From the NCBI GenBank assembly GCA_015490605.1, contig WFXL01000003.1:1-54768 (forward strand): a stretch of 54,768 nucleotides of DNA, read 5' to 3'. This DNA comes from Rhodospirillales bacterium. GTDB taxonomy: Bacteria; Pseudomonadota; Alphaproteobacteria; Geminicoccales; Geminicoccaceae. The translations under genes were made by a program, and so were the position numbers. The notes beneath the pieces were generated by a model. The model saw only the letters and a program-made list of their open reading frames with translations, searched no databases and was not told the DNA's origin. Of the stretch, positions 42,954-46,297 are shown piece after piece (the first letter of the stretch is position 1; the number at the start of each line of letters is the position of its first letter).

Positions 42954-45560
42954 TCAAGTCCGCCCCGTGGATAGCGCCCGGGTCAGCACCTCGCCGAGAT
43001 CACGCGAGACCGCCGGTCGGCGTGCCAGCGCCTCGACCGCCGCCCGCATGGCGCTGCGCCAGGGCTCCGACAGGCGGGCGAAACGGGTGAGGGGGACAGC
43101 GAGGCGGGCGGCGAGCTGGGGATTGTCGCGGTCGATGGTGGCCACCGCCTCGGCCAGCAGCCGATAGCCGGCGCCATCGGGCTGATGGAAGCCGCGCAGA
43201 TTGGTGCGGGCGAAGATCTCATAGAGGGCGCGCACGCGATTGGGGTTGCGCCGGTCGAAATCAGCACGCGCGCTCAGGCGCCGGATGCGCTCGAGGCATT
43301 CCGGATCCTCCCGCCGGGCCTGGAGCGCGTACCATTTGTCCATCACCAGCGGCTCGTGCGCGAAGCGGCGGGCGAGATCCTCGAGCAGTTGCTCGAGTGG
43401 GGCGAGCTCGCCCAGGAGTGCCGCCTCCAGCGCCGCCATGCGGTCGGTGAGATTGTCCGCCTGGCCCCAAAGCCGCAGGATGCGCCCCTCGGCCTCGGCC
43501 GGTGCTGCAAGCGCAAGCCACGCCAGAAGCTGCCCCCGGAGCGCCCGCGCGCCCATGTCGGCGAGATCCGGGCGAAACGGACCCGACACCTGGAGCCCAT
43601 CGAGCGCCAGGCTGAAGGCGGCCGCCAGCGGTTCGGCGAGCTCGCGGCGAAGCTCCCGCCAGCTGCGGTCCACCCGCAGGGGATCGAAGGGGGCGACCCG
43701 CTCGGCCAGCCGGTTGCGGCTGGGAAAGCCCAGGAGTTCGGCGGCCAGCAGCCGATCCTGCGGCAGTGCCGCCAGCACCCGGGCAAGCGCGCCGGCGAGC
43801 ACCCGCGCGGGCTCGTCCGAACCGCCCGCATAGCGCGCTTCAAGCGCCTGGAGCGCCAGCTTCTGGCCGGCGTCCCAGCGGGCGAAGGGATCATCCTCCC
43901 AGGCGAAGAGGGCGGCCAGATCCTCGGGCGCATAGGGCGCCTCCAGCATCACCGGCGCCGAGAAATCCCGCAGCAGCGAGGGCAGCACCGGCACCGCCCC
44001 GACCCGGAACACCGCCTCCAGCTCGGGGCTCTCCATCACCAGCAGATGATCTCGCGCCCGCCGGCCGTCGGGGCCCACCGCCTCCAGCCGGGCGCCGCTA
44101 CGACGGTCGAACAGCGCCAGCGCCACCGGGATCAGGAGCGGCGCCGGATCACCATCGGGCCGGTGCTGGCGCAGCCACAGGTGCAGCTGTTCGCCCTCCT
44201 GGCGCCAGCGGGCCTCGAGCCGGGGTGTGCCCACTGCCTCATACCAGCGGGCGAAGGCGGTGAGATCGCGGCCGCTGGCCTCGGCCATGGAGCGCAGGAA
44301 GTCCTCCACCGTGGCCGCGCGGCCGTCCATGGTGCGAAGATAGTGGCGCACGCCGCGAACGAAGCCCCGGCGCCCCAGCAGCACCTCCAGCATCCGCAGC
44401 ACTTCGGCGCCCTTGTAATAGACCGTGGCGGTGTAGAAATTGTCGATCGCCACATAGCGCTTCGGCCGGATGGGGTGGGCCAGCGGCCCAGCATCCTCGG
44501 GAAACTGCACCTCCTGCAACAGGCGCACGTCCTGGATGCGGGTCACGCCGCGCGACTGGCGGTCGCTGGCGAACTGCTGGTCGCGCAGGACGGTGAGGCC
44601 CTCCTTGAGGGTGAGCTGGAACCAGTCGCGCAGGGTGACGCGGTTGCCGGTCCAGTTGTGGAAGTACTCGTGCGCGACGATACGGGCGATGCGCAGGTAG
44701 TCGCGGTCGGTGGCAATATCCGGATCCGCCAGCAGCGCGGCGACATTGAAGATGTTGAGGCCCTTGTTCTCCATGGCGCCGAAGTTGAAATCCGGCACCC
44801 CCACGATCTGATAGAGATCGAGATCGCATTCGAGCCCATAGACCGCCTCATCCCACGCCATCGCGTCTGCCAGCGCCGCAAGCGCCCAGCGGCAGCGGCC
44901 GAGCTCCCCCCGTCGGCCATGGAGCCGCAGCACCACGTCGCGGCCCGATGGGGTGCGGTGGCGCGCCTCGAGATGGTCGAGATCGCCCGCCACCAGCGCG
45001 AACAGATAGCTGGGCTTGGGGAAGGGATCCTCCCATTCCGCGAAGTGGCGGCCGCCGGCGAGCGTGCCGGCGGCAACGGGATGGCCGTTCGCCAGCAGCA
45101 CCGGATAGCGCGCACGGTCGGCCTCGAGGCGCACATGATAGCGGGCGAGCACGTCGGGGCGGTCCTGCGACCACAGGATGCGGCGAAAGCCCTCGGCCTC
45201 GCACTGGGTCAGCAGCAACCCGCCGCTCTCATAGAGCCCCGAGAGGGCGGCATTGGCCCGCGGGTGAATGCGGGTGACGATCCGCAGCCGGGCATGATCA
45301 GGCACCTCATCAAGGCGCAGCACCTCACCCTCCACCGGCAGGCTCCGGGGATCCAGCGCGCGGCCGTCGACCGCAAAGGCCAGGGTCTCGAGCCCGTGGC
45401 CATAGAGTTCGAGCGGCCCCGGGCGCTGGCGCACCACCTCAAGCTCGCCCTCCACCAGCGTGGCCTCGGGATCGAGCTCAAAGCGCAGGCGCACCCTCTG
45501 GGTGGTGAAGGCCGGTGGGCGATAGTCCTCGAGCCGGTGTTCCGATAGCGGCAGGCTCAT
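42954..45560 (-). CDS. pepN: Aminopeptidase N (M1 family)
   Basis: 868 aa zinc aminopeptidase. Gly261-Ala-Met-Glu264-Asn is the substrate-binding exopeptidase motif, and His297-Glu-x2-His301 with a downstream Glu is the zinc site; the numbering matches E. coli PepN exactly. C-terminal domains cover residues 440-868. The frame is open up to 45878, but ATG 45560 is chosen because the family N-terminus (Tyr-Arg-Pro-Pro-Ala-Phe) follows and GGGAG lies upstream. A terminator on the same strand lies 70 nt before the start. Confidence 0.95.
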   Translation of the reverse strand: MSLPLSEHRLEDYRPPAFTTQRVRLRFELDPEATLVEGELEVVRQRPGPLELYGHGLETLAFAVDGRALDPRSLPVEGEVLRLDEVPDHARLRIVTRIHPRANAALSGLYESGGLLLTQCEAEGFRRILWSQDRPDVLARYHVRLEADRARYPVLLANGHPVAAGTLAGGRHFAEWEDPFPKPSYLFALVAGDLDHLEARHRTPSGRDVVLRLHGRRGELGRCRWALAALADAMAWDEAVYGLECDLDLYQIVGVPDFNFGAMENKGLNIFNVAALLADPDIATDRDYLRIARIVAHEYFHNWTGNRVTLRDWFQLTLKEGLTVLRDQQFASDRQSRGVTRIQDVRLLQEVQFPEDAGPLAHPIRPKRYVAIDNFYTATVYYKGAEVLRMLEVLLGRRGFVRGVRHYLRTMDGRAATVEDFLRSMAEASGRDLTAFARWYEAVGTPRLEARWRQEGEQLHLWLRQHRPDGDPAPLLIPVALALFDRRSGARLEAVGPDGRRARDHLLVMESPELEAVFRVGAVPVLPSLLRDFSAPVMLEAPYAPEDLAALFAWEDDPFARWDAGQKLALQALEARYAGGSDEPARVLAGALARVLAALPQDRLLAAELLGFPSRNRLAERVAPFDPLRVDRSWRELRRELAEPLAAAFSLALDGLQVSGPFRPDLADMGARALRGQLLAWLALAAPAEAEGRILRLWGQADNLTDRMAALEAALLGELAPLEQLLEDLARRFAHEPLVMDKWYALQARREDPECLERIRRLSARADFDRRNPNRVRALYEIFARTNLRGFHQPDGAGYRLLAEAVATIDRDNPQLAARLAVPLTRFARLSEPWRSAMRAAVEALARRPAVSRDLGEVLTRALSTGRT

Positions 45561-45629
45561 GGCGCACTCCCGTGGGCTCGCTTGCCATGGTAGGGCGGCC
45601 GGCGGAACCGTCACGGGGCCGGGACGGGC

Positions 45630-45658
45630 AAAAAGAAGCCGCGGCACACGGCCGCGGC
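45630..45658 (-). terminator. Rho-independent terminator upstream of pepN
   Basis: On the minus strand GCCGCGGC pairs with GCCGCGGC (8-bp stem, 5-nt loop CGTGT; 45638-45658), followed at once by TTCTTTTT (45630-45637). It faces the pepN direction, so it ends a transcript that starts upstream of pepN. Confidence 0.85.
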
Positions 45659-45718
45659 AGGTGGGGTAGGGAGGAAACGCCTCAAGTCGGGTGTCACAGG
45701 GGAAAACCCATGAACACG
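45630..45718 (-). ncRNA. Candidate small RNA with anti-Shine-Dalgarno segment
   Basis: Minus-strand layout: TTGTCA (45747-45752), 17-bp spacer, TATCGG (45724-45729), a predicted start near 45718, a 27-nt hairpin (45691-45717; outer GTGT/ACAC, inner GGG/CCC, two bulges), an unpaired stretch containing TTTCCTCCC (positions 45669-45677), then the terminator. Total about 89 nt. No ribosome site or family-like frame is present. The design recalls alphaproteobacterial sRNAs with CCUCC-type anti-SD motifs. The alternative is a pepN leader with an attenuator. Confidence 0.5.
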
Positions 45719-45913
45719 GCACCCCGATACGCCATATACGGGAATCTGACAAGGTGAATTTCCCGTTGAGGTTGGGCTTTCGTTTCGGATTCGTCCGGGA
45801 TTTGACTCGAATGCCGGATTTTCCCCGCACGGGCGCGACCGCGGCGCGCGGGGTGCTGGCCGCCGCCCCTGCGGCCACCTAAGTGCGGGGCGGAGATCCC
45901 TGGGAGAGGTGGG

Positions 45914-46297
45914 ATGGAGAGCCGCGACGTTCCCCACGCCGTCGACGTGGTGGCGCCGGACGGCTCGGAGATCCGACTGCTACCGCAGGTGCCGCGCGGC
46001 AGCATGGTCCACTGCCGGCTGCCGCCCGGAGCGGTGAGCCGGGCGGTACGCCATCGCACCGTGGACGAGCTGTGGTACGTGCTGCGCGGGCGTGGGCGGC
46101 TGTGGCGGGCGCGGGACGGCGAGGCGGCCGAAACCCCGCTGCTTCCTCACACCGCTCATGCCATCCCCTGCGGCACCCGTTTCCAGTTCCGCAACGACGG
46201 CGAGGAGCCGCTCGATATCGTCATCGTCACCATGCCGCCCTGGCCGGGGGAGGACGAGGCCGAGCGGGTGGCCGACCACTGGCCGCCCACCCTTTAG
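45914..46297 (+). CDS. Cupin-domain protein
   Basis: 127 aa single-domain cupin. The first cupin motif is degenerate but visible (His-Arg-Thr-Val-Asp-Glu-Leu-Trp-Tyr-Val-Leu-Arg-Gly-Arg-Gly), and the second reads Pro-His-Thr-Ala-His-Ala-Ile-Pro-Cys-Gly-Thr. The first-motif His, Glu and second-motif His could hold a metal. Enzymatic or sensory role unknown. It is followed 86 nt later by the metallo-beta-lactamase-fold gene in the same direction. Confidence 0.82.
   Translation: MESRDVPHAVDVVAPDGSEIRLLPQVPRGSMVHCRLPPGAVSRAVRHRTVDELWYVLRGRGRLWRARDGEAAETPLLPHTAHAIPCGTRFQFRNDGEEPLDIVIVTMPPWPGEDEAERVADHWPPTL

Follow-up and report, generated by a model that had tools for sequence, protein, structure and literature searches.

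We analyzed a window of 54,768 nucleotides (contig WFXL01000003.1, assembly GCA_015490605.1) from a bacterium of the family Geminicoccaceae (alphaproteobacteria). A first-pass annotation of this window had proposed a small trans-acting RNA on the minus strand, and all the elements that it described sit where it had put them, between 45752 and 45630. The features of the locus and its two neighbors are as follows.

45747..45752, minus strand: -35-like box TTGTCA; the preceding C makes CTTG, which recurs in relatives
45724..45729, minus strand: weak -10-like box TATCGG, with a spacer of 17 nt to the -35-like box
45630..45717, minus strand: predicted sRNA of 88 nt, αr8-type (R1 model match at 45628-45717; RF00519 match of 32 bits at 45623-45698)
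45691..45717, minus strand: 5' hairpin GUGUUCAUGGGUUUUCCCCUGUGACAC, 27 nt, kept within Geminicoccaceae
45680..45683, minus strand: GAGG, just upstream of the seed, predicted partner of the seed CCUC
45668..45677, minus strand: αr8 10-mer UUUCCUCCCU, anti-Shine-Dalgarno (anti-SD) seed, an exact match to the stated αr8 core (PMC12559287)
45630..45658, minus strand: intrinsic terminator GCCGCGGC-CGUGU-GCCGCGGC followed by UUCUUUUU, found by pattern scan, with compensatory changes in relatives
42954..45560, minus strand: pepN (M1 aminopeptidase; Pfam PF01433 and PF17432), a neighbor outside the sRNA that starts 69 nt past the terminator
45914..46297, plus strand: divergent cupin-domain gene (PF07883), a neighbor across the promoter region from the sRNA

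As read from the sequence, the predicted RNA runs from G45717 to T45630, and the 27-nt hairpin annotated at its predicted transcription start was located at 45717-45691. The pattern scan confirmed the claim of a strong terminator, with a hairpin at 45658-45638 (8 G-C pairs, loop of 5) followed by TTCTTTTT at 45637-45630; shuffles of the 2.5-kb region around the locus gave 0.7 terminator-like sites as the expectation. The fold of the predicted RNA was more stable than that of shuffled sequences (z of -2.77 for 91 nt and -3.51 for 88 nt). Both boxes of the annotated promoter-like pair TTGTCA-N17-TATCGG are in place with their spacing, but TATCGG makes a weak -10 box, and scanning under strict sigma-70 criteria found no promoter at the locus. 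Comparison of the copies showed that relatives repeat the CTTG of the -35 box and the 17-nt distance, and we regard the promoter as weak yet plausible. The pepN frame has no stop across the sRNA and extends as far as a GTG at 45878 (window 42954-45878, minus strand), probably as a chance effect of high G+C, and the start of PepN is most likely the ATG at 45560.

We then looked into the distribution of the locus in 31 genomes of the family, which is Geminicoccaceae according to the named records. A blastn search with a 131-nt stretch gave matches in 26/31 genomes, a few of which were chance-level terminator matches. A covariance model built from Geminicoccaceae copies only (model R1) retrieved 27 strong copies, defined as scoring >65 bits, in 23/31 genomes. 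Three genomes carry 2 to 3 strong copies each, and genome G030 has two copies 253 bases apart. Across 23 distinct aligned copies, GACACCCGACUUGAGGCGUUUCCUCCCUA hardly varies, and the 5' half and the seed are near-invariant: UUUCCUCCCU is present in 21/23 copies, the other two (L022 and L023) carrying UUUCCUCCCA instead. The terminator stem varies by compensatory changes, with three pairs changed on both sides, and the structure as a whole had more paired cells and a higher covariation score than any slid version. The first-pass annotation had suggested covariation analysis of homologous loci as a check and had named conservation of the hairpin and terminator as one point on which its proposal hung; the terminator shows two-sided changes, and both elements are kept in the Geminicoccaceae copies. 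The positions of the 5' hairpin are paired in 97% of the alignment cells and show one-sided changes only, and the alignment support for this hairpin is modest because it varies so little. Since it is conserved in 23/31 genomes, in 27 copies, the predicted sRNA unit is far from chance.

We then compared the locus with known sRNA families. Its best Rfam match was RF00519 (suhB/mmgR; 32 bits, E value of 2.9e-5 locally), and in a scan of the whole genome with RF00519, the window locus was the best match (E value of 8.3e-5). The locus does not reach the curated RF00519 cut-off of 41 bits, which is an Rfam annotation cut-off and not a biological property. RF00519 represents MmgR of Sinorhizobium meliloti, which together with SisA-D of Caulobacter crescentus forms the αr8 group. 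In the reverse test, R1 was run over 241 genomes of the class and gave 26 matches outside Geminicoccaceae; 17 of these fall in genomes for which an RF00519 scan was also made, and 15 of the 17 correspond to listed RF00519 matches. The exact UUUCCUCCCU was found in 20/26 of these matches, and 16/26 have a gene for formylglutamate amidohydrolase (FGase) nearby, linkage to FGase and the 10-mer core being the published marks of αr8 (PMC12559287). The Rho-independent terminator at the 3' end, another mark of αr8, is present at the window locus. The Geminicoccaceae RNA also shares with MmgR and SisA-D the GGCG ahead of the core, the short length (77 nt for MmgR, 88 nt here), a hairpin 5' of the core, and the occurrence of several siblings in some genomes. 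FGase adjacency, usual in αr8, is missing from the Geminicoccaceae form: FGase genes are present in 31/31 Geminicoccaceae genomes, and that of the window genome lies on another contig. This linkage is not required in αr8, as SisB-D lie elsewhere (PMC12559287). Two copies bear on the genomic context. One, in another family (L124), sits in the RNase J-glyoxalase-DUF1467 setting typical of Geminicoccaceae, and in genome G004 a divergent copy has been retained beside DUF1467. Given the reciprocal R1 matches, the 10-mer, the FGase linkage of the matches, and the context of these two copies, we treat the locus as an αr8 homolog; on sequence grounds, it is very probably the Geminicoccaceae representative of the αr8 (MmgR/SisA-D) sRNA genes. 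The first-pass annotation had the class of small RNA right and did not recognize its membership in αr8.

An independent sRNA family could instead have converged on the αr8 core, since anti-SD motifs recur in AbcR, NfeR1, CcsR, and SorX RNAs. The RF00519 score under the cut-off would fit this explanation, as would a 5' hairpin and a genomic location unlike those of canonical αr8 and the existence of another RNA, described below as sRNA B, with a similar layout and another core. In addition, two R1 matches of the class scan (L114 and L130), which count against the αr8 assignment, belong to another sRNA, which resembles SorX; the combination of a short anti-SD core and a terminator can therefore recur. 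We nevertheless consider convergence improbable: the block common to both groups, GGCGUUUCCUCCCUA, exceeds an anti-SD, the R1 matches in other families are mainly FGase-linked αr8 genes, and L124 shares a Geminicoccaceae-type context across families. SorX (RF02784) and SorY of Rhodobacter are likewise small anti-SD-type sRNAs with a terminator, but their core and 5' domain are unlike those of the window locus, which gave no match to the SorX model at E values up to 10 in a permissive Rfam scan. The same scan gave no match to the family models of AbcR1/2 (αr15), NfeR1 (αr14), and CcsR-type RNAs, which are also alphaproteobacterial anti-SD sRNAs (PMC7143759 and, in part, general background).

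Evaluation of the neighborhoods revealed that pepN, the cupin gene, and a beta-lactamase-fold gene are common only to the window genome (G000) and to its congener G003. Many other genera have the RNA downstream of RNase J, of a glyoxalase-fold gene (methylmalonyl-CoA-epimerase-like), and of DUF1467, with proS or a gene for a lytic transglycosylase following it; others have it beside crcB or unrelated genes. These variable neighbors rule out a fixed cis role and, together with the conservation of the RNA, bear out the annotated sRNA locus and support a genuine free-standing gene, whose predicted product is a regulatory RNA of ∼88 nt of the trans-acting type. Changes in loop length break any reading frame, and the only possible short frame shifts phase from species to species; we rejected a small protein read as AUG GGU UUU CCC CUG UGA, of which the frame and the stop vary between species. 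The alternative offered by the first-pass annotation, an attenuator-type pepN leader that acts in cis through premature termination, draws on the terminator placed 69 nt ahead of pepN on the same strand and on the pepN linkage in G003, but we reject it as highly improbable, because pepN is adjacent in only two genomes (G000 and G003) and the RNA is conserved across 23, other genera having a nearly constant RNA sequence without pepN next to it, and since no leader peptide is found (the frame differs among species) and the terminator stem has no competing partner in the predicted folds.

As a free-standing αr8-type gene, the locus would be transcribed from a housekeeping-type promoter into an RNA of ∼88 nt, starting near 45717 and ending at its own terminator. 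By homology, the RNA would probably bind Hfq via its 3' U-tail, and UUUCCUCCCU would probably base-pair with Shine-Dalgarno regions of the GGGAGGAAA type in several mRNAs; as for SisA, this pairing would block the entry of ribosomes and lower the levels of the target mRNAs. Experiments in Caulobacter showed that SisA represses mRNAs through the 10-mer with Hfq and that the sponge CrfA counters SisA (PMC12559287), and MmgR limits polyhydroxybutyrate granules in S. meliloti (PMC7143759). The hfq gene is present in 29/31 genomes of the family, including the window genome. In that genome, the 11-nt complement AGGGAGGAAAC does not occur a short distance ahead of the ATG of any gene, and GGGAGGAA-N(1-9)-ATG sites number 14 versus 1 in a reversed control, a difference expected of any SD-like pattern. 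An apparent excess of nutrient uptake genes among the candidate targets (transporter binding proteins accounted for 8 of about 20 usable AGGGAGGAAAC-before-ATG genes, as judged by eye) failed its control, as AGGGAGGBBBC genes gave about 5/20 (Fisher P = 0.50, no enrichment), and was discarded.

The anti-SD stretch UUUCCUCCCU had been annotated as unpaired; the stretch is there, but base pairing between its CCUC and the upstream GAGG is predicted, with an unpaired probability of 0.11 to 0.19 in the window copy. All four GAGG-CCUC pairs are kept in 22/23 aligned copies. The αr8 10-mer is, in contrast, described as single-stranded and downstream of a weak hairpin. In the comparison αr8 genes, the GGGC before the seed usually pairs with a GCCC just upstream, whereas the Geminicoccaceae form lacks this GCCC partner and has, instead of the core-touching GCCC/GGGC hairpin, a GUGUUCAUGGG/CCCUGUGACAC hairpin further upstream. 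The mean unpaired probability of the seed was 0.63 in Geminicoccaceae versus 0.81 in the comparison αr8 set, values that are predictions for rows related by descent, so a P value on this difference would not be fair. The GAGG-CCUC mini-hairpin may keep the seed half-closed, with Hfq or a target needed to open it; this is the weakest step of the proposed mechanism. Taken further, loss of the GCCC partner would leave GAGG free to close over the seed CCUC, and the Geminicoccaceae form would be a self-masked, gated αr8 RNA, active only once Hfq or another RNA opens the seed, in contrast to the open seed of MmgR and SisA; we advance this model tentatively and think it rather unlikely.

The window RNA is a real but ordinary member of the known family αr8, and its assignment extends this functionally studied group to Geminicoccaceae, for which we found no small-RNA paper. 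The pattern suggests that the gene moved and swapped its 5' domain with the seed fixed, which distinguishes what targeting needs from what can vary freely. The alignment collected here would let the Rfam mmgR model reach Geminicoccaceae.

The RF00519 scan also brought up sRNA B (G000:C145:31709-31814, minus strand; locus L148), which has a core UCCCAGACGUUCAGCCUCCCUGAUC and a terminator in a layout like that of the window sRNA, with AGCCUCCCUGA in place of the 10-mer. It is conserved in 30/31 Geminicoccaceae genomes and occurs in other alphaproteobacterial families, and it has subthreshold scores against the SorX, SorY, and mmgR models. Genome G025 contains four copies of sRNA B, and three of these share a contig at spacings of about 333 bases. 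A candidate for an FGase-linked αr8 copy in the window genome, head-to-head with FGase on contig C147, was rejected, as it scored only 20 bits with RF00519 and lacks the 10-mer; for this FGase-side candidate, the all-family scan lists CcsR1, below the cut-off of that model. L034 (G000:C147:18296-18369, minus strand), which stands head-to-head with that FGase gene, consists of a UUUCCCUUCCCUCCCUGA stretch followed by a terminator and has a weak CcsR1-like score. Finally, L033 (G000:C5:5662-5733, minus strand), in which a long hairpin ACGUCCCGUUGGGCAGCGGGACGU precedes a UCUCCUCC stretch and a terminator, is possibly another anti-SD-type RNA.
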